This document shows positions 1-12,162 of a DNA stretch of 14,190 nt, piece after piece. Numbering within the stretch: position 1 is the first letter of the stretch; each line of letters starts with the position of its first letter. Source of the stretch: Acetobacteraceae bacterium (GTDB taxonomy: Bacteria; Pseudomonadota; Alphaproteobacteria; Acetobacterales; Acetobacteraceae); contig CANJXD010000093.1 of assembly GCA_947478535.1 (NCBI GenBank), positions 1 through 14,190 of the forward strand, in the 5' to 3' direction. Under the pieces are notes generated by a model that worked only from the letters and a program-made list of their open reading frames with translations, made no database searches and was not told where the DNA came from. The position numbers were made by a program, and so were the translations under genes.

Positions 1-147
1 CAAGGTCTACGCCGCCGCGGCCAGCGTCATCGCCACAGGGCGCCTGCATGGAAGGACCGCCCTCGAGGCGTTGCGCGCCGCCCTCGCGGGCGTGGCGATC
101 ATACGACCTGCGTGAGGCACGACCGGAAGGGGGGGGTGAGCAATTAC
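1..147 (+). mobile_element. Right end of an IS66-like insertion sequence (partial)
   Basis: The left edge of the window holds the end of a transposase-like reading frame and then ~30 bp of non-coding sequence ending in ...TTAC at 144-147. Read outward on the other strand the end begins GTAATTGCTCACC, and IS66-family elements characteristically start with GTAA. Immediately after 147 the sequence becomes recognisable bchE coding sequence in one frame. A junction near 147 is therefore the simplest reading, with an expected 8-bp target duplication of which one copy would be 148-155. The left end and most of the element lie outside the window, so the family assignment and exact terminus are inferred. 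Confidence 0.42.
2..115 (+). CDS. C-terminal fragment of a transposase, probably IS66 family
   Basis: An open frame enters from the left edge and ends at TGA 113-115, giving 37 visible residues. Its tail contains SVIATGRLHGRTALEALRAA followed by LAG and a final IIRPA. This resembles the end of IS66-type transposases, where a pattern like S-x-I-x-T-A-R-x-x-G-x-x-x-L-x-A-L precedes a short LAG-x-P tail. The catalytic DDE residues would lie upstream and cannot be seen. The frame stops about 32 bp before the presumed element end. With so few residues another family is possible, but its position directly against a broken bchE supports a mobile-element origin. Confidence 0.45.
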   Translation, partial: KVYAAAASVIATGRLHGRTALEALRAALAGVAIIRPA

Positions 148-613
148 CCGCGCCACGCTGCTGGACCGGACCATGGCGAATTACCGCCGCTTCTACCTGC
201 GCAAGACCTTCCTCGGCTATCCCTGGATCAAGGATAAGGTGAAGCGGAAATACATGCTGGGCTGCCTCTGGGCCTTCGCGAAATCCGGCTTCCAGCGCAC
301 CTTCTATGACCTCGGCAAGGTCGGCTATTGGGGCCCGCAATCGAAGAAGAACGTGGACTTCCACTTCGACGAGACGAAGCACCTGGATACCGAGGCGGCG
401 CGCGCCCCACATAATGCGATGTGGAAGACGATGCATCGCCCGAAGGTGAAGCTGCCCGCGGCGAACCAGGGCGTGATCAAGGCCTGCGGTGGCGGGACGG
501 AGCAGATGGAGGAGGAAGCACCACCCGTCGTCGCAGGGGCGGCACGCGCCATGTCCTTTGGCGGTGGCACGCAGCAGCGCCCCGAATCGGTGCACGCCGC
601 AGCGCGGGAATAG
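148..613 (+). pseudogene. bchE: bchE 3' remnant (oxygen-independent Mg-protoporphyrin IX monomethyl ester cyclase), truncated at its 5' side
   Basis: BchE is a B12-binding radical-SAM enzyme that closes ring E of bacteriochlorophyll without oxygen. Only the C-terminal ~155 codons are present. The frame reads [19 protein letters not shown], then a YPW segment and [20 protein letters not shown] followed by [11 protein letters not shown], which is the conserved BchE tail. It is closed upstream by TGA at 137-139, inside the adjacent insertion-sequence end. The B12 domain and the CxxxCxxC radical-SAM motif, roughly the first 400 residues, are absent here. ATG 173 could initiate a 146-residue peptide, but it would lack all catalytic parts. 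Homology resumes right after the IS end, so insertion into an intact bchE is likely, with the 5' part possibly surviving beyond the left edge. bchJ follows 4 bp after the stop, the usual bchE-bchJ arrangement. Confidence 0.78.
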
Positions 614-617
614 CGCC

Positions 618-1220
618 ATGGATGGCGGCTACGCCCCCGATGGTGGGCGCATCGGCCCGAACGCGATCACCCGCATGGCGGAAGCCATGCGGGCGGCGCT
701 CGGCGAGGAGGCAACACGGGCCATCTTTCGCGCCGCGCTGATCGAACGTCACCTGGATGCACCGCCCGGCCGCATGGTGCCGGAACGTGATGTCACGGCG
801 CTGCACCGCGCCGGCCGCGCCGCGCTGGGCGAAGCCCGGCTGGCGCTTCTGGCGCGCCATGCCGGGGCACTGACGGCACGCTACCTCCTGGCGCACCGCA
901 TACCCCGCCCGGTGCAATGGCTGCTGCGGATGCTGCCACCTGGGCTCGCTGCCCGCGTGCTGCTGCGGGCCATCGGCGCGCATGCCTGGATCTTTGCCGG
1001 CAGCGGCAGCTTTCGGGTTGCATGGGGCCGCCCCTTGCGCCTGGAAATCGCCGGCGGGCCGATCGCGGCTGCCGGCACGGCGGAGGAGCCGGTCTGCGAC
1101 TATTACGCCAGCACCTTCGAGACACTGTTCGCCACGCTGGTCAGCCGCTATGCGCGGGTCAGGGAAGTGGCCTGCTGCGCCACGGGCGCCACCGCCTGCG
1201 TGTTCGAGGTGACCTGGTAG
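618..1220 (+). CDS. bchJ: BchJ, V4R-domain bacteriochlorophyll biosynthesis protein
   Basis: A 200-residue protein matching BchJ in length and character. Residues 11-130 are a helical region (IGPNAITRMAEAMRA near the N-terminus). The C-terminal part is a V4R-type domain, with DYYASTFETLF at 161-171 and cysteines at 160, 186, 187 and 194. BchJ was first named a 4-vinyl (8-vinyl) reductase. It is now thought more likely to help channel porphyrin intermediates, because BciA or BciB do the reduction, so its reaction is uncertain. ATG 618 lies 4 bp after the bchE stop, and the frame is open further upstream only as an overlap with bchE. No strong ribosome binding site is visible. If the IS upstream carries a terminator, bchJ may have lost its normal promoter. 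Confidence 0.88.
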   Translation: MDGGYAPDGGRIGPNAITRMAEAMRAALGEEATRAIFRAALIERHLDAPPGRMVPERDVTALHRAGRAALGEARLALLARHAGALTARYLLAHRIPRPVQWLLRMLPPGLAARVLLRAIGAHAWIFAGSGSFRVAWGRPLRLEIAGGPIAAAGTAEEPVCDYYASTFETLFATLVSRYARVREVACCATGATACVFEVTW

Positions 1221-1273
1221 GCCGGCGCAACTTCTTCGCGGCTTCGGATCGGAACGCGGCAAAAGCCGTTGAC

Positions 1274-1301
1274 TTGAGTGTCAAGAAAGCATGACACTCA
1301 A
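1274..1301. promoter_or_regulatory. PpsR/CrtJ operator upstream of crtE
   Basis: A perfect inverted repeat with 10-bp arms, TTGAGTGTCA (1274-1283) and TGACACTCAA (1292-1301), around an 8-bp spacer. It contains TGT-N12-ACA at 1279-1296, the recognition sequence of PpsR/CrtJ, the redox- and light-responsive repressor of photosynthesis genes. It lies in the 197-bp non-coding stretch between bchJ and crtE. A possible -35 (TTGACT, 1269-1274) is adjacent, with only a poor -10 at 1292-1297 inside the operator, so the exact promoter is unclear. A second full site was not seen nearby. The rest of the stretch (1302-1400) shows no gene. Confidence 0.82.
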
Positions 1302-1400
1302 AACCGACAACAAAAGATGACGGTTGACCCTCCGGCACCCGCCGGCGGCAGGCCGCATCGCCATACCGGGCCCGCCAAGGCGGCCACGTCCGGGATGCGA

Positions 1401-1409
1401 AGGTGGGAG
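1401..1409 (+). promoter_or_regulatory. Ribosome binding site of crtE
   Basis: AGGTGGGAG ends 8 nt before ATG 1418. It decides for that start over the in-frame GTG at 1403, which lies inside the site. Confidence 0.7.
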
Positions 1410-1417
1410 CGGCCCGG

Positions 1418-2281
1418 ATGGATGTCTCGACGCGGATCGAATCGACCCTGGCCGACGCCGTGCTTTATGCGGAGGCATCCGGCGCACCGCCGCGCCTGGC
1501 CGCGGCCTTGCGCCATTCGGTGTTCCCGAAGGGCAACCGCATCCGCCCGCGGCTGACCCTCGCCGTGGCCGCTGCCTGCGGGGATGACAAGCCGGCCTTG
1601 GCCTCTGCCACTGCCGCGGCGATCGAGTTGCTGCACTGCGCCTCTCTCGTGCATGACGACATGCCCTGCTTCGACGATGCGGCGACGCGGCGCGGCAAGC
1701 CCAGCGTGCACCGCGCCTTCGGCGTGCCGCTGGCGGTGCTGGCCGGCGATGCGCTGATCGTCCTCGCCTTCCAGACCCTGGCTCGCGCCGCCCCCTGCGC
1801 GCCGGAACGCCTCGGCCCCTTGATGATCGCGGTCGGCGATGGCGTCGGCGTGCCCTTCGGCATCGTCGCCGGCCAGGCCTGGGAATGCGAACCCCGCGCC
1901 GACCTGTCCGAATACCAGCGCCAGAAGACCGGGAGCCTGTTCGCCGCCGCCACTATCGCCGGCGCTGCCGCCTGCGCCCATTCCGAACCCGAGGCATGGC
2001 GCCTGCTCGGCGATCGGCTGGGGGAGGCCTACCAGGTCGCCGACGATCTGCGCGACGCGGTGGAGGATGAGGCGACGATCGGCAAGCCGGTCGGCGTGGA
2101 CAAGGCGCTCGGCCGCCCGAGCGCCGTCGCCGAATTCGGCCTGCAAGGCGCCGTGGCGCGCCTGCGCCGCCTGTCGCAGGACGCGGTGGACAGCATCCCC
2201 GAATGCCGCGGCCAGTCCATGCTGCGCGGCCTGATCCTGCAGGACGCGGGGCGCCTGCTGCCGCAGAAGCTCGCCGCCTGA
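1418..2281 (+). CDS. crtE: CrtE, geranylgeranyl diphosphate synthase
   Basis: A 287-residue trans-prenyltransferase that condenses isopentenyl diphosphate onto allylic diphosphates to give C20 geranylgeranyl diphosphate. This is the precursor of carotenoids and of the bacteriochlorophyll tail. The first aspartate-rich motif is at 80-87 (DDMPCFDD) after LLHCASLVH. The second is ADDLRD at 208-213. The KGNRIRP substrate-binding segment is at 38-44 and KTGSLF at 170-175. Length and motif spacing are normal for CrtE/IspA-type enzymes; CrtE rather than the C15 enzyme IspA is chosen because of the photosynthesis context. It is the first gene after the PpsR operator, and crtF follows within ~20 bp, so they probably form one transcript. 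Confidence 0.93.
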   Translation: MDVSTRIESTLADAVLYAEASGAPPRLAAALRHSVFPKGNRIRPRLTLAVAAACGDDKPALASATAAAIELLHCASLVHDDMPCFDDAATRRGKPSVHRAFGVPLAVLAGDALIVLAFQTLARAAPCAPERLGPLMIAVGDGVGVPFGIVAGQAWECEPRADLSEYQRQKTGSLFAAATIAGAAACAHSEPEAWRLLGDRLGEAYQVADDLRDAVEDEATIGKPVGVDKALGRPSAVAEFGLQGAVARLRRLSQDAVDSIPECRGQSMLRGLILQDAGRLLPQKLAA

Positions 2282-2302
2282 GACATGCCCGGCGGTGATG
2301 TC

Positions 2303-3433
2303 ATGACCGCCCCCGCACCCGGGTGGCGCGATCGGTTCCGGGAGTGGCGCGAGAGTGTGACCGCGAGCCCCCGTTTCCGGTCCTGGGCGGCGGCTTTCCC
2401 ACTGACGCGGCCGATGGCGCGGCGTCGGGCGCGGGAGTTGTTCGATCTCTGCGCGGGCTTCGTCTATTCGCAGGTGCTGTTGGCTTGTGTGCGGCTTCGC
2501 CTGTTCGACATGCTGCACGAAAGCGGTCCGATGACGGAAGCGGCGCTGGCGCTCCGCTTGTCCCTGCCGCCGGAAAGTGCGGCGCGCCTGCTGGCCGCCG
2601 CGGCGTCCCTGCAGCTGACCCATCGCCGTGCCGATGGGCGCTGGACACTGGGGCCGCTGGGTGCCGCGATGATCGGCAATCCTGGCCTGTGCGCGATGGT
2701 GGAACACCATGCGCTGCTCTACGCCGATCTCGCGGACCCCGTGGCGCTGCTGCGGCGGGAACGCGGGGGCAATGCGCTGTCGGCCTATTGGGCCTATTCC
2801 GGCGCGGAAAGCCCCGAGTCGCTGGCGGGGGAGAAGGTCGCCGACTACTCCGCGCTGATGGCGGCCTCCCAGCCCATGGTCGCGGAGGAAGTGCTCGCTG
2901 CCTATGATTTCCGGCGCCACAAGGCGCTGCTGGATGTCGGTGGAGGAGAGGGTGCCTTCCTCTCCGCCGTCGGTGCCGCGGCGCCTTCCCTGCGGCTGAT
3001 GCTGTTCGACCTGCCGCCGGTGGTGGCGCGCGGTGCCGCGCGCTTCACGACCAACGGCATGGCGCCCCGTGCCAGCACCCATGGCGGCGACTTCACCATG
3101 GATGCGCTGCCGGCCGGCGCCGATATCGTCAGTCTGGTGCGTGTTCTGCACGACCACGACGACGATGTCGTGATGGGCCTGCTGCGCCGCGTGCGCGCCG
3201 TGCTGCCGCCAGGCGGTCGCCTGGTAGTCGCGGAGCCGATGGCTGGCACCAGCGGGGCGGAGCCGATGGGCGAGGCCTATTTCGGTTTCTACCTGCTCGC
3301 CATGGGCCGCGGCCGGCCCCGGCGGCCCGAGGAATTGCAGGCGATGCTCGCCGCCGCCGGTTTCGGCGCCAGCCGCCTGCTGCCGACCCACACTCCGTTG
3401 CTCACCCGCGTGCTGCTGGCCGACGCCATCTGA
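2303..3433 (+). CDS. crtF: CrtF, carotenoid O-methyltransferase (demethylspheroidene/hydroxyneurosporene methylase)
   Basis: A 376-residue SAM-dependent methyltransferase that methylates the 1-hydroxyl groups of carotenoids in the spheroidene/spirilloxanthin pathway. Residues 44-130 form the dimerisation and winged-helix region typical of plant-type O-methyltransferases. The SAM-binding motif I, LLDVGGGEGAF, is at 209-219. The DLPPV acidic motif is at 236-240, and RVLHDHDDD at 280-288 carries the likely catalytic His. The start is a choice: ATG 2303 has GGTG a few bases upstream, whereas ATG 2285 (six codons earlier, 3 bp after the crtE stop) has none. Its presence implies methoxylated carotenoids, such as spirilloxanthin. 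Confidence 0.92.
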   Translation: MTAPAPGWRDRFREWRESVTASPRFRSWAAAFPLTRPMARRRARELFDLCAGFVYSQVLLACVRLRLFDMLHESGPMTEAALALRLSLPPESAARLLAAAASLQLTHRRADGRWTLGPLGAAMIGNPGLCAMVEHHALLYADLADPVALLRRERGGNALSAYWAYSGAESPESLAGEKVADYSALMAASQPMVAEEVLAAYDFRRHKALLDVGGGEGAFLSAVGAAAPSLRLMLFDLPPVVARGAARFTTNGMAPRASTHGGDFTMDALPAGADIVSLVRVLHDHDDDVVMGLLRRVRAVLPPGGRLVVAEPMAGTSGAEPMGEAYFGFYLLAMGRGRPRRPEELQAMLAAAGFGASRLLPTHTPLLTRVLLADAI

Positions 3434-3480
3434 CGGAATCCGGGGAGTTTTCGCCTCGCCGCCGTTATGGTCGCGCGGTC

Positions 3481-3498
3481 TGTCAGTTTCGCTTGACA
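3481..3498. promoter_or_regulatory. PpsR/CrtJ operator 1 of bchC
   Basis: TGTCAGTTTCGCTTGACA is an exact TGT-N12-ACA site. Its last six bases are the -35 hexamer TTGACA, so a bound repressor would block sigma-70 recognition. It is followed after exactly 8 bp by a second site. Confidence 0.88.
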
Positions 3499-3520
3499 AT
3501 AATTGCTGTCATCTTACCCT
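3493..3520 (+). promoter_or_regulatory. Sigma-70-type promoter of the bchC operon
   Basis: A perfect -35 TTGACA (3493-3498) is followed, after 16 bp, by TACCCT (3515-3520) as a weak -10. Transcription would begin near 3527, ~25 bp before the bchC start. The -35 lies in operator 1 and the -10 in operator 2, the arrangement known for the Rhodobacter bchC promoter. The 117-bp gap 3434-3550 holds nothing else recognisable. Confidence 0.72.
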
Positions 3521-3524
3521 TACA
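3507..3524. promoter_or_regulatory. PpsR/CrtJ operator 2 of bchC
   Basis: TGTCATCTTACCCTTACA is a second exact TGT-N12-ACA, covering the presumed -10 region. The 8-bp gap to operator 1 matches the spacing that permits cooperative tetramer binding of CrtJ/PpsR in Rhodobacter. Confidence 0.87.
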
Positions 3525-3550
3525 CTCAACCATGGGAGCAGACAGTCCAG

Positions 3551-4501
3551 GTGGACACCGTCGCCGTACTACTGGAAGCGCCTGAAAGGCTGACGCTCAG
3601 CCGCCTCGAACTCTCGCCCCCGGGTGAGGAGGATGTGGTGGTCGACGTCGAATGGAGTGGCATCAGCACCGGCACGGAGCGTCTGCTCTGGACCGGAACG
3701 ATGCCGCCCTTCCCGGGCATGGGCTATCCGCTGGTGCCTGGCTACGAATCCGTGGGCCGCGTGGCCTCTGTCGGTGCCCGTTCCTTGCGCCGTGTCGGTG
3801 AACGGGTGTTCGTCCCCGGCGCCAAGTGCTTCGGTGAGGTGCGCGGGTTATTCGGAGGCGCGGCCTCGCGCCTGGTCGTTCCCGGTGCGCGCACCGTGCA
3901 GATGGATGAAAGCCTCGGCGTCGATGGCGTGCTGCTGGCGCTGGCGGCGACGGCACAACACGCCATCGCGCCGCCCGCCCTCCCTGGCATCCTGCCGCCG
4001 GACCTCATCGTCGGCCATGGTGTGCTTGGCCGGCTCGTCGCGCGCCTCGTCATCGCCGCCGGTGGTCCCCCGCCTACGGTGTGGGAGAAGAACCCGCAGC
4101 GCTTCGCAGGCGCTGCAGGCTACTCGGTGGTGGATCCCGACAACGATCCGCGCCGGGACTATCGCAGCATCTGCGATGTCAGCGGCGATGGCACGCTGCT
4201 GAACACCTTGGTGCAGCGGCTCGCGCCGGGTGGGGAGATCATCCTCGCCGGCTTCTACCACCAGCCGCTGTCGTTCAGCTTTCCGCCCGCCTTCATGCGG
4301 GAGGCGCGCTTCCGAATCGCCGCCGAATTCAAGGAGCCGGACCTCAACGCGGTTCGCGACTTCCTGAGCAGCGGCAAGCTTTCCCTCGATGGCCTTGTCA
4401 CGCACCAGCGCGATGCGAGCGCCGCCGAGGATGCCTATCGGACAGCCTTTTCCGATCCCGCGTGCCTGAAGATGGTCCTCGACTGGAGAAAGACGCAATG
4501 A
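3551..4501 (+). CDS. bchC: BchC, 3-hydroxyethyl bacteriochlorophyllide a dehydrogenase
   Basis: A 316-residue oxidoreductase that oxidises the C3 hydroxyethyl group to the acetyl group of bacteriochlorophyllide a. The N-terminal GroES-like part holds GISTGTERLLW (38-48) and MPPFPGMGYPLVPGYE (51-66), which are hallmarks of BchC. The nucleotide-binding fold follows, with VGHGVLGRL at 154-162. The start is GTG 3551: it gives the typical VDTVAVLLEAP N-terminus and ~315-residue length. The frame is open further upstream, but only through the -10 and operator sequence. GGGAG at 3534-3538 is a rather distant ribosome binding site (12 nt). The stop overlaps the bchX start by ATGA, suggesting translational coupling. 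Confidence 0.93.
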   Translation: MDTVAVLLEAPERLTLSRLELSPPGEEDVVVDVEWSGISTGTERLLWTGTMPPFPGMGYPLVPGYESVGRVASVGARSLRRVGERVFVPGAKCFGEVRGLFGGAASRLVVPGARTVQMDESLGVDGVLLALAATAQHAIAPPALPGILPPDLIVGHGVLGRLVARLVIAAGGPPPTVWEKNPQRFAGAAGYSVVDPDNDPRRDYRSICDVSGDGTLLNTLVQRLAPGGEIILAGFYHQPLSFSFPPAFMREARFRIAAEFKEPDLNAVRDFLSSGKLSLDGLVTHQRDASAAEDAYRTAFSDPACLKMVLDWRKTQ

Positions 4502-5517
4502 ACGGTCCCGCAGCCATCACCCCGGCACGTTCCGCGCAGGCCAGCATGGCCGAGGCGCTGAGGGCGGAAGCCGAGCAGGGGCCCGATCCGGTCTCCACCG
4601 AGCCGGTGAAGAAGGAAACGCAGATCATCGCCATCTACGGCAAGGGTGGCATCGGCAAATCCTTCACCCTGGCCAATCTCAGCTACATGATGGCGCAGCA
4701 GGGCAAGCGCGTGCTGCTGATCGGCTGCGATCCGAAATCCGATACGACGAGCCTGCTGTTCGGCGGCCGTTCCTGCCCGACGATCATCGAGACGTCGTCC
4801 CGCAAGAAGGCCGCGGGTGAGCCGGTTGCCATCGGCGATGTCTGCTTCAAGCGCGATGGCGTCTTCGCCATGGAACTCGGCGGGCCGGAAGTCGGCCGCG
4901 GCTGCGGTGGGCGCGGCATCATCCACGGCTTCGAATTGCTGGAGAAGCTGGGCTTTCATCAGTGGGACTTCGACTACGTGCTGCTGGACTTCCTCGGCGA
5001 CGTGGTCTGCGGCGGCTTCGGCCTGCCGATCGCCCGCGACATGTGCCAGAAGGTGATCGTTGTCGGCTCGAACGACCTGCAGTCGCTCTATGTCGCGAAC
5101 AACGTCTGCTCGGCGGTCGAGTACTTCAAGAAGCTCGGCGGCAATGTCGGCGTGGCCGGCATGGTCATCAACAAGGATGACGGCACGGGGGAGGCGCACG
5201 CCTTCGCCGAAGCCGCCGGCATCCCCATCCTGTCCGCCATTCCGGCCGATGACGATATCCGCCGCAAATCCGCGAACTATGAGATCGTCGGCGTGCCCGG
5301 CGGTCCCTGGGCCAGTGTGTTCGAGCAGCTTGCGACGCAGGTGGCGGAAGCGCCCCCGCTGCGCCCGAAGCCTTTGACGCACGATGCTCTGCTCGGCCTG
5401 TTCAAGGGCGATGCGGTGGGCCGTGGCGTGGTGCTGAATCCCGCGACGATGGAAGACATGTGCGCGGCCGATGTGCTGAACAAGCCGTCCCTCGAAGTGG
5501 TCTACGAGGGCGCCTGA
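4498..5517 (+). CDS. bchX: BchX, iron protein of chlorophyllide a reductase
   Basis: A 339-residue ATP-dependent reductase subunit related to nitrogenase NifH and to BchL. It passes electrons to BchYZ for reduction of ring B (the C7=C8 bond) of chlorophyllide a. A P-loop YGKGGIGKS is at 47-55, and the switch segment GCDPKSDTTSLLFGG at 76-90. The [4Fe-4S] cluster cysteines are C136 (GRGCGGRG) and C171 (DVVCGGFG). The first ~40 residues are a variable extension before the conserved KKETQIIAIYGKG. GGAG at 4485-4488 lies 9 nt before ATG 4498. Being BchX rather than BchL is supported by its position between bchC and bchY. Confidence 0.95.
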   Translation: MNGPAAITPARSAQASMAEALRAEAEQGPDPVSTEPVKKETQIIAIYGKGGIGKSFTLANLSYMMAQQGKRVLLIGCDPKSDTTSLLFGGRSCPTIIETSSRKKAAGEPVAIGDVCFKRDGVFAMELGGPEVGRGCGGRGIIHGFELLEKLGFHQWDFDYVLLDFLGDVVCGGFGLPIARDMCQKVIVVGSNDLQSLYVANNVCSAVEYFKKLGGNVGVAGMVINKDDGTGEAHAFAEAAGIPILSAIPADDDIRRKSANYEIVGVPGGPWASVFEQLATQVAEAPPLRPKPLTHDALLGLFKGDAVGRGVVLNPATMEDMCAADVLNKPSLEVVYEGA

Positions 5518-5520
5518 ACA

Positions 5521-7035
5521 ATGGACACGCTTCCCCCCGCCGCAGTGCCTGTTGCCGCCGAAGGTGCTGGCTGCCATGGCGGCCGGGAAACACTCGACGC
5601 CGCTGCGCGCGCTGCGGGCAAAAGCGCCACGATGGACAAGCTCGCCGCGGATTACCCGCGCGGCCCGCATGACCAGCCGCAATCCATGTGCCCGGCCTTC
5701 GGTTCGCTGCGCGTCGGCCTGCGGATGCGGCGCACGGCGACGATCCTCTCGGGCAGCGCCTGCTGCGTCTATGGGCTGACCTTCACCAGCCATTTCTACG
5801 GCGCGCGCCGTACCGTGGGTTATGTGCCCTTCAATTCGGAAACCCTCGTCACCGGCAAGCTGTTCGAGGATATCCGCGACGCCGTCCATGCCATCGCCAA
5901 GCCCGAGGATTATGACGCGGTCGTCGTGATCAATCTCTGCGTGCCGACCGCGTCCGGCGTGCCGCTGGACCTGCTGCCGAAGCAGATCGATGGTGTGCGG
6001 GTTATTGGCATCGATGTGCCAGGCTTCGGCGTGCCGACGCATGCGGAAGCGAAGGACGTGCTGTCCGGCGCCATGCTGCGCTATGCCAGGGGCGAGGCCG
6101 AATCCGGCCCCGTCGCGCGGCCGCGCCAGATGGTGGCTGGTGCGCGCACCGTAGCCTTGATCGGCGAATTGTTCCCGGCGGATCCGATGGGCGTCGGCGC
6201 GATGCTCGCCCCGATGGGCCTGGCGCTGGCGCCGCAGACACCGTCGCGCGAATGGCGCGATCTATACGCTGCGCTGGATTGCGAAGTCGCCGCCGCGGTG
6301 CATCCCTTCTACACCGCGAGCATCCGTGAATTCCGTGCCGCCGGCCGTCCAGTCGTCGGCTCCGGCCCTGTCGGGCTTGAAGGCACGGAAGCCTGGCTTT
6401 CCGCCATCGGCCGCGCGGCCGGTGTTGCTGACAGTGCGGTGGATGCCGCGAAGGCGCGCATCCTGCCGGCCATCCGAGGCGCCCTCGCCGGCGCGCCCAT
6501 CAAGGCCCGCGTCACCGTCTCCGGCTACGAAGGCTCCGAGCTGCTGGTCGCGCGCCTGCTGATCGAGGCCGGCGCCGAGGTGCCCTATGTCGGCACCGCC
6601 TGCCCGCGCACGGAATGGAGTGCCGCGGATCGCGAATGGCTCGAAGCGCATGGCTGCCACGTGCAGTATCGCGCCAGCCTGGAGCAGGACATCGCCGCCA
6701 TGCGCGATGCGAAGCCGGACCTCGCCCTTGGCACCACGCCGTTGGTGCAGAAGGCGAAGGAGATGGGCACGCCGGCGCTGTATTTCACCAACATGGTCTC
6801 CGCCCGTCCGCTGTTCGGGCCGGCAGGCGCGGGTTCCATGGCGGGTATCGTCGCGGCGCAGACGCGGGGGCGGGAACGCTTCTCTCGCATGGTGTCCTTC
6901 TTCGAAGGTGTCGGCACGCCGGATGGCGCGGGCTACGGCTTCAAGGACAAGCCCGTCGATCCGCCAGGCTTCCGCGACCGCCAGCGCAAGCTGCGTATGG
7001 CCAAGGCGAAGTCTGAAGAAGCGGTGGGGACCTGA
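5521..7035 (+). CDS. bchY: BchY, chlorophyllide a reductase catalytic subunit
   Basis: A 504-residue subunit of the nitrogenase-like BchYZ heterotetramer, which binds chlorophyllide a and an Fe-S cluster. Three cysteine sites fit the cluster ligands: C57 ([10 protein letters not shown]), C81/C82 ([11 protein letters not shown]) and C140 ([10 protein letters not shown]). The C-terminal half carries [20 protein letters not shown] and a normal C-terminus. The first ~50 residues (Ala/Gly-rich) are variable, so a slightly later start, such as the ATG at residue 38 (position 5632), is possible. ATG 5521 follows the bchX stop by 3 bp, and bchZ begins 1 bp after the bchY stop. Confidence 0.94.
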
Positions 7036-7036
7036 G

Positions 7037-8560
7037 ATGCTCGTCCTCGATCATGATCGGGCTGGTGGATACTGGGGCGCGATCTACGCCTTCTCCGCCG
7101 TGCGTGGCCTGCGGGTAGTGATCGACGGCCCGGTGGGCTGCGAGAACCTGCCGGTGACGGCGGTGCTGCACTACACTGACGCGCTGCCGCCGCACGAACT
7201 CCCGATCGTCGTCACCGGCCTCGATGAGGACAGCCTCTCGAAGAACGGGACCGAGGATTCGATGCGGCGCGCCGCATCGACGCAGGACCCGGATCTGCCC
7301 GCCGTCGTCGTCACAGGCTCGATCGCCGAAATGATCGGCGGTGGCGTGACGCCACAGGGCAGCAACCTGCAGCGCTTCATCTGCCGCACGATCGACGAGG
7401 ACCAGTGGCAGGCCGCCGACCGCGCCATCATGTGGTTGTGGACCGAATTCGGCGCCCGCGGCCGCAAGATGCGCGCGCGCAACGCGAAGCTCGGCCCGAA
7501 GCCGCGCGTCAACATCATCGGGCCGATCTACGGCACCTTCAACATGCCCTCCGACCTGGCGGAAATCCGCCGGCTCGTCGAAGGCATGGGCTGCGAGATC
7601 AACCTGGTCTTCCCGCTCGGCAGCCATGTCGAGGATATCGCGAAGCTGCCCGATGCCGATGTGAACATCTGCATGTATCGCGAATTCGGACGCAAGCTGT
7701 GCGAGGAGCTGGAACGCCCCTGGCTGCGGGCGCCGATCGGGCTGTTCGCGACGACGAATTTCCTCCGCAAGCTGGGCGAGCTCACGGGGCTGGACCCTGA
7801 GCCCTTCATCGAGCGCGAGAAGCACACCACGATCAAGCCGATCTGGGATTTGTGGCGCAGCGTGACGCAGGATTTCTACGCCAGCGCGTCCTTTGCGGTG
7901 GTGGCGACGGATACCTACACCCGTGGCCTGACCCGTTTCCTCGGTGAGGAAATGGGCGTGCCCTGCGCCTTCTCCTTCGCCCGCGTGGCCGGTGAGAAGC
8001 CGGACAATGCCGCGGTGCGGGAGGCGATGAAGAAGAACCCGCCGCTGGTTCTCTTCGGCAGCTACAACGAACGCATGTATGCCGCGGAATTGCGGAGCCG
8101 CGCCATGTACATTCCGGCCAGTTTTCCGGGTGCGATCATCCGCCGCGCCACCGGCACGCCCTTCATGGGCTATGCGGGCGCGACCTACATCATCCAGGAA
8201 TACTGCAACGCGCTGTTCGACGCGCTGTTCCACATCCTGCCCCTCGGCACTGACCTCGACCGCGTGGAACCCACGCCGGTCCGCAAGTCCGAGCCCTGGG
8301 ACGACGATGCGGTGGAACTGCTCGACGCGCATGTGCAGGCTGAGCCCTTCCTGCTGCGCATCTCCGCCTCCCGGCGGCTGCGTGAGCAGGTGGAACGTAT
8401 GGCACGCGAGGCTGGGGAGCCGCGCATCATACGGGACCGCGTGCTGGCGACATTGGGGGAGGTGGTGGCCGAAGCGCCCGCCGAAGCCCCGTTGCCCAGC
8501 GCGATGAGACACACCGCGGTGGATTCCGCCGCGGCCACAACTGCGGAGGGCGTCGCTTGA
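7037..8560 (+). CDS. bchZ: BchZ, chlorophyllide a reductase catalytic subunit
   Basis: A 507-residue partner of BchY. The N-terminus [20 protein letters not shown] is the typical BchZ start. C35 in [10 protein letters not shown] is the expected single cluster ligand contributed by BchZ. Conserved blocks include [16 protein letters not shown] (about residues 94-109), [19 protein letters not shown] and [19 protein letters not shown]. The last ~40 residues are alanine-rich and probably variable. The start lies 1 bp after the bchY stop, with GGTGGGG ~10 nt upstream. Together with BchX it completes the ring-B reductase that distinguishes bacteriochlorophyll a from chlorophyll. Translation is likely coupled along bchCXYZ. 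Confidence 0.95.
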
Positions 8561-8643
8561 CGATGCCCCTGCGTCCTTCCGATCCCGGTCTCCCCGAACC
8601 TTGCGGCACACACTGCCGAAGGTAACGGGATCCGGGTCGGCCA

Positions 8644-8706
8644 TGGCGGTTTCCCGCCACGCCGTACCCTGCCGCGCGGGCTGTGCGCGGTAACGGCCGA
8701 AAGGCC
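8644..8706 (+). other. Hairpin-rich leader upstream of pufB
   Basis: Three consecutive potential RNA hairpins occupy the 163-bp gap between bchZ and pufB: TGGCGG/CCGCCA with a TTTC loop (8644-8659); CCGCGC/GCGCGG with a 7-nt loop (8672-8690); and GGCC-GAAA-GGCC, a GNRA tetraloop, at 8695-8706, ending 4 nt before the pufB ribosome binding site. No T-run follows any of them, so they look more like mRNA processing or protection elements than terminators. No pufQ and no convincing promoter were found in 8561-8723; the only ATG-started ORF there is ~20 codons. Confidence 0.45.
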
Positions 8707-8710
8707 AGTT

Positions 8711-8714
8711 GGAG
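8711..8714 (+). promoter_or_regulatory. Ribosome binding site of pufB
   Basis: GGAG lies 9 nt before ATG 8724. It overlaps the in-frame TTG at 8709 and so rules that start out. Confidence 0.6.
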
Positions 8715-8723
8715 ATCAATGTG

Positions 8724-8903
8724 ATGGCCGAAGGTTCAAGGACCGGCCTGACCGAAGGCGAAGCGCGCGAGATTCACCAGCTCATGATTCAGGGCTGGGC
8801 ATTCTCCGTCTTCGCGTCGATGGGGGCGCATGTGCTGACGTGGCTGTGGCGGCCGTTGGTGTACGGCAATTCCGTGGTCCCGCCGGACTGGCGCTTCTTC
8901 TGA
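8724..8903 (+). CDS. pufB: PufB, LH1 light-harvesting beta subunit
   Basis: A 59-residue single-span antenna polypeptide. The acidic N-terminal LTEGEAREIHQLMIQG (residues 9-24) and the transmembrane GWAFSVFASMGAHVLTWLWR hold the LH1 beta signature. The His in GAH is the axial ligand of a bacteriochlorophyll. After it the order is H-VLTWLWRP-L. The residue nine after the ligand is Leu, where LH1 beta usually has a Trp that binds the 3-acetyl group. The tail (LVYGNSVVPPDWRFF) is longer than the usual RPWF-type end. It is the first gene of pufBALMC, and pufA follows after 66 bp. Confidence 0.95.
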   Translation: MAEGSRTGLTEGEAREIHQLMIQGWAFSVFASMGAHVLTWLWRPLVYGNSVVPPDWRFF

Positions 8904-8969
8904 GGCAATACCGGGCCATGCGGTGTCCGCCGTTGGTCCGGGCCCGAAGACAGATAGGAGAGAAAATCC

Positions 8970-9149
8970 GTGCATAAGATCTGGATGGTCATCGACCCTC
9001 GCCGGTCGCTGTTCCTTGCGATGGTCGCGGTGCTCGCAGTCGCGGCGCTGATTCACATCGTCGTGCTGAGCTCGCCCCGCTACTGCGATCACTTTGGCTG
9101 GTGCGCGACGGCCCCGACCTTCACCCCGGGCCAGCCCGTGGGTCGATAG
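8970..9149 (+). CDS. pufA: PufA, LH1 light-harvesting alpha subunit
   Basis: A 59-residue LH1 alpha polypeptide, GTG start, with AGGAG at 8956-8960, 9 nt upstream. MHKIWMVIDPRRSLF is the conserved alpha N-terminus. The membrane span runs about residues 13-34, and the bacteriochlorophyll ligand is H29 (AALIHIVVLSS). After the ligand the sequence is SSPRYCDHFGWC. The position 11 residues past the His, normally Trp, is Asp, and the first Trp is at +15. Two cysteines (39 and 45) and a His flank this unusual stretch. It pairs with PufB in the LH1 ring. It is too short for many gene finders but unambiguous. Confidence 0.95.
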   Translation: MHKIWMVIDPRRSLFLAMVAVLAVAALIHIVVLSSPRYCDHFGWCATAPTFTPGQPVGR

Positions 9150-9269: not shown

Positions 9270-10094
9270 ATGGCGATACTGACATTCGAGCGGAAATATC
9301 GCGTCCGCGGGGGCACCCTGGTGGGCGGCGACCTGTTCGACTTCTGGATAGGGCCGTTCTGGGTCGGCTTCTTCGGGGTTACCACGGCCTTCTTCACCTT
9401 CGTCGGTGTCGGCCTGATCCTGATGGGCGCGTCCATCCAGGGCACCTTCAACCCCTGGCTCATCAACATCCCGCCGCCGGACCTGGCCTATGGCCTGCGT
9501 TTAGCGCCGATCCGGGAAGGTGGGCTGTGGCAATGGATCACGCTCTGCGCGCTTGGCGCCTTCGTCTCATGGGCCCTGCGCCAGGTGGAGATCTCCCGCA
9601 AGCTCGGCATGGGCTACCATATCCCCATCGCCTACAGCGTCGCGGTGTTCGCGTATTTCACGCTGGTCATCATCAGGCCGATCCTGATGGGGGCGTGGGG
9701 GCATGGGTTCCCCTACGGCATCTGGTCGCACCTCGATTGGGTGTCGAACGTCGGCTACCAGCACCTGCACTTCCACTACAATCCCGCACACATGATCGCC
9801 GTCAGCTTCTTCTTCACGACAGTGCTGGCGCTGTCGATGCATGGCGGGCTCGTGCTGTCGGCGCTCAACCCGCCGAATGGCGAACCGGTGAAGACCGCGG
9901 AACATGAGAACACCTTCTTCCGTGACCTGATCGGCTACTCCATCGGCACGCTCGGCATCCATCGCCTCGGCCTGTTCCTGGCCTTGTCGGCAGCGTTCTG
10001 GAGCGCGGTCTGCATCGTCATCAGCGGTCCCTTCTGGACGCGCGGCTGGCCTGAGTGGTGGAGCTGGTGGCTCAACATGCCGATCTGGCGCTGA
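9270..10094 (+). CDS. pufL: PufL, photosynthetic reaction centre L subunit
   Basis: A 274-residue five-helix membrane protein that binds the special pair, accessory pigments, non-haem iron and quinone B. Using Rhodobacter numbering (index minus 1), the key ligands are present: L153 His (SHLDW), L173 His (NPAH), L190 His (SMHGG), L230 His (GIHRLG). L168 is His, as in Mg-bacteriochlorophyll centres and not the Glu of Acidiphilium. L212 is Glu but L213 is Asn (EHENTFF). L104 is Gln (ALRQVE) where Glu is usual, and L164 is His (GYQHLHFHY) where Tyr is usual. GGGAG at 9256-9260 lies 9 nt before ATG. pufM starts 11 bp after its stop. Confidence 0.97.
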
Positions 10095-10105
10095 GGGAGG
10101 GAACG

Positions 10106-11092
10106 ATGTTTAAGCCCGAATACCAGAACATCTTCACCCGCGTGCAGGTCCGTGGCCCGACACCCTATCCGGGTGTCCCGCTGCCGGCCGGCGACGTACC
10201 CCGCGAAGGCACGCCCACCGAAGTCTCGCTGTTCGGCAAGATCGGTGACGCGCAGGTGGGGCCGATCTACCTCGGCACCCTCGGCATCCTCTCGATCTTC
10301 TTCGGCTTCATTGCCTTCGAGATCATCGGCCTGAACATGCTGGCGTCGGTGGGCTGGGATGTCCGCCAGTTCGTCAAGCAGCTGTTCTGGCTCGCGCTCG
10401 AACCACCGCCGGCGCATTACGGCCTGCGCATGCCGCCGCTGCGCGAAGGCGGTTGGTGGCTGGTCGCCGGCTTCTTCCTCACGATGTCGATCATGCTCTG
10501 GTGGCTGCGCACCTATCGCCGCGCACGCCAGCTTGGCATGGGCACGCATGTCGCCTGGGCCTTCGCGGCCGCGATCTGGCTCTACCTGGTGCTGGGCTTC
10601 ATCCGCCCGATCTTGATGGGGTCCTGGAGCGAGGCGGTGCCCTTCGGCATCTTCCCGCACCTCGATTGGACGGCGGCTTTCTCGATCCGGTACGGGAACC
10701 TGTTCTACAACCCGTTCCACGCACTCTCGATCGTCTTCCTCTACGGCTCGACCCTGCTCTTCGCCATGCACGGCGCGACGATCCTCGCCCTCGGCCGCTA
10801 CGGCGGTGAGCGTGAGATCGAGTTGGTGCTCGACCGTGGCACGGCCGCCGAGCGCGGCGCGCTGTTCTGGCGCTGGTGCATGGGCTTCAACGCCAGCTTC
10901 GAGAGCATCCATCGCTGGGCCTGGTGGTTCGCCGTTCTCTGCCCGCTGACCGGCGGCATCGGCATCCTCCTCACCGGCACCGTCGTCGACAATTGGTACC
11001 TCTGGGCGGTGGATCGGCATTTCGCGCCGTCCTACCCCGCGCTCTGGGCCCCGGTTGCCGATCCCGCCGCCCTGCAAGGAGCCGCCCGATGA
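10106..11092 (+). CDS. pufM: PufM, photosynthetic reaction centre M subunit
   Basis: A 328-residue partner of PufL. It begins [18 protein letters not shown], the usual M-subunit start, and GAGGGAGGGAA lies just upstream of ATG 10106. Special-pair and accessory ligands are at 205 (NPFH) and 185 (PHLDW). Iron ligands are at 222 (AMHG), 237 (GEREIE) and 269 (SIHRW). Tyr M210 (index 213) and Trp M252 (index 255) are kept. Residue 48 is Asp (GDAQVGPIY), equivalent to M44, which is Asn in R. sphaeroides. The C-terminus is ~20 residues longer than R. sphaeroides M, as in species with a PufC cytochrome. The stop overlaps the pufC start by ATGA. Confidence 0.97.
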
Positions 11093-12162
11093 GGTTCTCC
11101 ACCCAAGTCCTGCTCGGCCTCGCCGCGCTGTTCTGCACGGTGGTGATCGTGCTGACCTTCGAGCGTCCGCCTGCGCAGACCACGCAGATCGGCTTCCGTG
11201 GCGTCGGCATGCATGACCTGAACAACCCCCGCACCCTGGCGGTGCGGGTTGCCGCGAACCAGCTTCCGGAAGTGCCGGAAGCCGCCGATACCGACGGCCC
11301 GAAGGCCAGCGAGACCTTCGAGAACGTCCAGGTGCTCGGCGAGCTGAGCGTGGGCCAGTTCGGCCGCCTGATGCAGGCGATGACCGAATGGATCGCGCCC
11401 GGCCAGGGCTGCACCTATTGCCACAACCCCGAGAACATGGCCTCCGACGAAGTCTACACGAAGGTCGTCTCCCGGCGGATGCTGCAGATGGTGCGGCGGA
11501 TCAACACCGACTGGACAAGCCACGTCGCCCAGACCGGTGTCACCTGCTACACCTGCCATCGCGGTCGCCCCGTGCCGGAACAGGTGTGGTCCACCATCAC
11601 CGAGAACCGCCCGGGCCTGCAGGCCAGCCGCGGCCAGAACCACCCTGCGCCGGTGGCCAATGACAGCTCCCTCCCCGCGGAGCCCTTCACCCGCTACCTC
11701 CTCGGGCAGGACGAGATCCGCGTGATCAGCGGCACCTCGCTTCCTGGCCGCAATCCCGCCGGCATCATGCAGGCGGAATGGACCTACTCGCTCATGATGT
11801 CGATGAGCGAAGGGCTCGGCGTGAACTGTACGCATTGCCACAACAGCCGTTCGTTCGCGGATTGGGCGACCAGCCCGCCGGCACGGCTCACGGCCTGGCA
11901 CGGCATCCGCATGGTGCGGGACCTGAACACGGCCTTCATCACGCCGCTGACCCCGCTCTGGGTGGCCAATCCGGGTGGCCCCCCGGATGCCCCGCACATG
12001 GCGCGCCTCGGCCCGCAGGGTGATGCGCTGAAGGTCAATTGCGCGACCTGCCACCAGGGGGCCAACAGGCCCTTCTACGGGGCGCCAATGCTGAACGGGT
12101 ATCCGGAACTGCGCCTGATCAGCGCGGGGCCTGCCCGGGCGGCGGAAGCCACCCCGCAGTGA
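11089..12162 (+). CDS. pufC: PufC, tetraheme cytochrome c subunit of the reaction centre
   Basis: A 357-residue periplasmic cytochrome that re-reduces the special pair. Four c-type haem motifs are present at 108-112 (CTYCH), 153-157 (CYTCH), 247-251 (CTHCH) and 318-322 (CATCH). The usual helix with a Met ligand precedes each pair. Residues 5-23 form a hydrophobic N-terminal segment. C16 (ALFC) does not fit a good lipobox, so the protein is more likely membrane-anchored by an uncleaved helix than lipidated; this is inference. AAGGA at 11076-11080 and an ATGA overlap with pufM suggest coupled translation. Confidence 0.97.

Follow-up and report, generated by a model that had tools for sequence, protein, structure and literature searches.

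The window, which is a complete contig of 14,190 bases, holds a series of photosynthesis genes that begins with the end of bchE directly behind a piece of mobile DNA. This arrangement raised the questions of what separated this remnant from the rest of its gene, and of how the organism would form bacteriochlorophyll if the oxygen-independent cyclase were lost.

Organization of the contig and its closest relatives

Base 1 of the window is the contig start and already belongs to an IS66-family element, of which only the 3' end is present; the features that follow are collected in Table 1. The genes at 1403..2281 and 2285..3433 are presumably crtE and crtF, names that we gave them from their position. 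The original prediction described an otherwise intact photosynthesis cluster, but the contig covers only bchJ through crtI, and acsF and much of the cluster are not on it. A scan of bases 1-1420 detected neither a sigma-70-like promoter nor a terminator. A plasmid origin was considered and rejected, as the whole window matched five plasmid records, none with 80% coverage, and no plasmid matched bases 1-160.

Table 1. Features of the 14,190-base window
Feature	Position	Strand	Evidence
IS66-family insertion sequence, 3' end (transposase C-terminus, then right terminal repeat)	1..147	+	DNA identity 98% to G126 copy; IS66 domain in homologous copies; five-copy alignment
Terminal repeat of the element, GTAATTGCTCACCC	134..147	-	Resembles ISDge4 end GTAACTGCTCAGCA (PMC12898284) and both ends of the 1494-base L115 relative
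CCGCGCCA, predicted 8-bp target duplication (second copy beyond contig)	148..155	.	Predicted from element end at 147
bchE 3' remnant, open over 154 codons	149..613	+	TIGR02026 profile 414-492/497, E 8e-24
bchJ, complete	618..1220	+	TIGR02019 195.9 bits vs cut-off 74.3
Polyprenyl diphosphate synthase, crtE-like	1403..2281	+	PF00348; NF045485 under its cut-off
Methyltransferase, crtF-like	2285..3433	+	Weak TIGR02716 match, E 4.7e-12, under cut-off
bchC	3503..4501	+	TIGR01202 443 bits
bchX	4498..5517	+	TIGR02016 423.5 bits
bchY	5521..7035	+	TIGR02015 678.9 bits
bchZ	7037..8560	+	TIGR02014 734.9 bits
pufB	8709..8903	+	NF040862 E 7.8e-12, under its cut-off
Short ORF flanked by pufB and pufL, probable pufA	8970..9149	+	ORF; name from position only
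pufL	9270..10094	+	TIGR01157 428 bits
pufM	10106..11092	+	TIGR01115 537 bits
pufC	11092..12162 (start codon approximate)	+	NF040706 441 bits over 11092-12159
crtI-family desaturase, runs past contig end	12787..14190	+	TIGR02734 556 bits

Eighty related loci were gathered via bchJ. The closest by summed DNA score were those of Roseomonas ponticola (L004), Falsiroseomonas algicola (L005), an Acetobacteraceae MAG (L001) and F. stagni (L002), at approximately 82% identity over 8.6-8.9 kb. A full, single-frame bchE was present in 42 of the 80 loci, the closest relatives included, and was not seen within the fetched stretch in 31. The remaining seven had a partial bchE: five lay at a contig start, one (L041) had a frame change and in one (L046) a stop occurred just where the alignment finishes. 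In a chosen set of 21 relatives, acsF was found in all and bchE above the cut-off in 18; in the remaining three, a contig end truncates bchE.

The similarity to these relatives is uneven along the window. The crtE-like gene, bchX and bchY are 92-98% identical to those of the four Falsiroseomonas-type loci named above, whereas the bchE C-terminal part is only 73-74% and bchJ only 64-66% identical to theirs, and the bchE remnant is closer to another locus, L079 (87%). This contrast in identity between bases 148-1234 and 1256-9016 hints at a mosaic cluster. Additionally, two minus-strand genes separate bchJ from crtE in the R. ponticola locus (L004:10578-12825), with a similar gap in the other Falsiroseomonas-type loci; the window (1220-1403) and the Neoroseomonas-type loci have no such intervening genes.

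Identity and end of the insertion sequence

Frame 2 encodes the C-terminus of a transposase from base 2 to a TGA stop at 113-115. Taken alone, this fragment gave a weak NCBIfam IS66 match (E 0.047, profile 359-386 of 387), and its best Pfam match was an unrelated phage zinc-binding model (E 0.079). At the DNA level, bases 1-146 were 98% identical (E 3.5e-66) to a copy in G126, a genome from the family of the relatives, and four more matching stretches of at least 125 bases occurred in three genomes at 73-94% identity, one in G223 at 94% and three in two genomes at 73-76%. Some match was returned from 77 of the 299 genomes searched, mostly of just 20-60 bases. The copies that are 98% (G126) and 76% (G238) identical to the window encode IS66 transposases (PF03050, E 5.2e-25 and 4.8e-38, respectively). 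The window piece is thus assigned to the IS66 family on the DDE_Tnp_IS66 domain of these homologous copies, through the DNA matches and not through the score of the fragment itself. The proposal that the contig starts in an IS66-like element was thereby borne out.

The right end of the element was placed with an alignment of five copies, that of the window included. Similarity stops at base 146-147 and the copies diverge beyond, making base 147 the last of the element (...GGGTGAGCAATTAC), as had been predicted; the terminus at 134-147 agrees. The TTAC end is exact in two of the four other copies, and the remaining two deviate at the final base or two. The sequence GTAATTGCTCACCC was found without mismatch once in the window, on the minus strand at 134-147; at three or fewer mismatches, 0.63 matches would be expected by chance. 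Of the GTAA...TTAC terminal inverted repeats the window holds the right end, and both ends were seen only in the L115 relative, which is 1494 bases long with a single transposase ORF and no accessory genes. The element in the window is probably of the single-transposase ISBst12 kind. A search for an 8-bp duplication at the ends of the L115 relative yielded no matching 8 bases.

Such a transposase was found in none of ten close phototrophic relatives (E <= 1e-30), so this lineage probably gained the element after their split. A similar transposase is present in G126 and G223, both of which are outside the list of acsF genomes.

The junction and the bchE remnant

Directly after the element, bchE resumes in register at base 148 and stays open through 613. 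Bases 148-172 are identical to F. stagni bchE, and the cut falls after an Asp whose counterpart is residue 413 of 552 in the BchE of L079 and 414 of 570 in that of L004. An in-frame TGA at 137-139, within the end of the element, precedes the remnant, and the first ATG of the remnant is at 173. Translated bases 149-610 matched the BchE model TIGR02026 with 84 bits (E 8e-24), under the whole-protein cut-off of 481, and covered only profile positions 414-492. These observations confirmed three parts of the original prediction, namely that bchE is truncated, that a stop stands in frame ahead of the remnant and that the frame of the remnant is undecayed, with no stop in 154 codons.

No Pfam domain was found in the remnant. 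In the intact BchE of L079 the B12-binding (14-132) and radical-SAM (201-362) domains are both upstream of the cut, and their counterparts here would consequently lie beyond the contig. The claim that these parts are missing holds for the contig but does not extend to the genome, since a simple insertion would leave residues 1-413 on the other side of the element. A PDB sequence search identified no BchE structure, the best match being another radical-SAM enzyme (E 3e-11). The variable tail of BchE (window 450-600; proteins P0002, P0006 and P0246) has a repeated ACGGGxxQLPE-like motif whose second copy in the window is without its Cys; the tail reads FGGG where related proteins have CGGG.

The reading that we favor, to which we assign a probability of about 0.87, is a simple insertion of an IS66-family element at bchE residue 413, with the 5' part of the gene beyond the element, an inactive cyclase and AcsF taking over. 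The element would have entered after the Asp codon, in the same direction as bchE, and would interrupt both transcription and translation of the gene. The BchE 5' part, which includes the B12-binding and radical-SAM domains, would run into the element and stop there, while some 140 C-terminal residues would be severed behind the in-frame stop. This most likely inactivates the oxygen-independent cyclase. Based on the presence of acsF in all 21 chosen relatives, bacteriochlorophyll synthesis very probably continues as these relatives are equipped to perform it, with the oxygen-dependent AcsF carrying the step.

The position of the contig end also bears on whether the joint is real. The contig stops 147 bases into a mobile element, as happens when an assembler meets a repeat, and the element and bchE could have been misjoined, or only some cells of the sampled population could carry the insertion. 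We consider an artefact of this kind improbable because the joint falls exactly on the last base of the element, a precision not expected of a random misjoin.

A second alternative, somewhat less improbable than a misassembly but still unlikely, is that the element did more than insert, and that homologous recombination between copies or an adjacent deletion removed the bchE 5' part, perhaps with neighbors including acsF. The contig holds nothing to the left of the element, and because it stops within the element, an adjacent deletion could have gone unseen. Deletions also occur in this region, as in genome G104, where residue 368 of bchE is followed directly by the 3' half of bchJ. Against this, everything visible on the contig is consistent with a simple insertion, and the rightward gene order matches that of relatives, apart from the two genes between bchJ and crtE in some of them.

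Search for the rest of bchE and for a second copy

Protein searches were evaluated on the 120 matches listed in each of three sets (of 142, 783 and 1897, respectively). No bchE 5' part running into the element was identified among the 120 of 783 matches listed. An uninterrupted sister allele was sought and rejected, as the nearest full-length BchE among the matches listed was ~75-83% identical over 130-157 residues.

An intact second bchE elsewhere in the genome, sustaining the oxygen-free route, has a precedent in G162, a genome of the family that carries two full bchE copies. We regard this as highly improbable here: among the 57 genomes listed, G162 alone had two matches above the cut-off, and of 351 proteins fetched from the matches listed, none except the remnant itself was more than 79% identical to it. 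G162 also has a degenerate third copy (L129, G162:C1:3604000-3606500).

Age of the truncation

The insertion had been predicted to be recent. Over 84 codons, dN/dS between the remnant and its six most similar relatives was 0.095-0.182, and in comparison with five further relatives it was 0.227-0.304; these values lie within or near the range among intact relatives (0.073-0.333). The open frame and these ratios are compatible with a recent event and weakly support it, but 84 codons are insufficient for dating.

The undecayed frame and dN/dS resembling that of intact genes would also fit an older truncation common to more than one species, with the 146-residue C-terminal piece of BchE (from the Met at 173) retained as a separate protein. 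Two metagenomic proteins, P0002 (146 residues, 79% identical) and P0004 (123 residues), start at the methionine of the remnant's first ATG. Contig edges could explain both start points, and we give retention of such a protein very little weight.

Loss of bchE in the family

To place the truncation in context, we surveyed 397 genomes from the family of the R. ponticola genome (G004), which we take to be Acetobacteraceae. An acsF match was present in 120 of them (119 above the cut-off). In these 120, bchE was full in 48, broken inside a contig in three and cut by contig ends in four; 65 had none, defined as no bchE at 60% identity or more, and some of these may be incomplete genomes. Above its cut-off bchE was found in 52 of the 397 genomes, 50 of which also belonged to the 120 acsF-matching genomes (exceptions, G025 and G390).

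The three genes broken inside a contig differ in their lesions. In the acsF-bearing G104 (L122, G104:C41:6000-10500) a deletion into bchJ fuses residue 368 of bchE with residue 110 of bchJ, so that neither gene is left intact; in G107 (L123, G107:C79) bchE is spread across three frames; and in Elioraea tepida (G065; L121, G065:C1:656000-659500) there is a frameshift near residue 387, for which a sequencing error is possible. Several other candidates were dropped, as their breaks coincide with contig ends: a possible disruption of bchE by an element in Roseococcus thiosulfatophilus (G010), and the interrupted genes of G009, G012 and G285. Genomes with TGA marks were counted as full, these being taken as ordinary gene ends: in G338 and G256 the stop lay in the C-terminal tail, and in G162 (also full by its other copy) and G214 the aligned part contained no stop. 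G307 was counted as lacking bchE, since its full-length homologue (38% identity) is under the BchE cut-off.

The count over 120 genomes suggests that bchE is dispensable in this family once acsF is present. It also tempers the prediction that the insertion would bind the strain to oxygen for pigment synthesis: many relatives with acsF have no bchE, and losing it may therefore carry little cost. The window thus records a real but ordinary gene loss, one more loss of bchE, with the insertion sequence still in place. It provides a concrete route by which an aerobic phototroph may lose the oxygen-free cyclase, insertion first and erosion later. The dispensability of bchE was a trend already described, and the general picture is unchanged.

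Comparison with known systems

The nearest parallel for the element is ISDge4 of Deinococcus geothermalis (IS66 family, ISBst12 group), as described in PMC12898284. The two share a transposase family, judged for the window from the 98% and 76% identical copies, as well as the terminal sequence GTAAyTGCTCA, and both are inserted within a pigment gene. They differ in that the window shows only 147 bases, and the left end, the full transposase and the predicted second copy of the 8-bp duplication would lie beyond the contig.

For the loss itself, Elioraea tepida MS-P2 is comparable in that bchE is interrupted in an acsF-bearing relative, although by the frameshift near residue 387 and not by a mobile element. 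The presence of acsF and bchE in E. tepida is said to permit synthesis with and without oxygen (PMC8781829). More broadly, a review states that most aerobic phototrophs have no bchE and bchJ in the cluster or genome, and ties this to the small benefit in air (PMC12654162), and acsF was present in every aerobic anoxygenic phototroph examined by an earlier study, according to PMC4944227. The window resembles these phototrophs in that bchE is out of use and its relatives bear acsF. In contrast to the losses described in that review, it keeps bchJ and the 3' end of bchE, so that here the loss appears to have been caught early, with its cause still visible.
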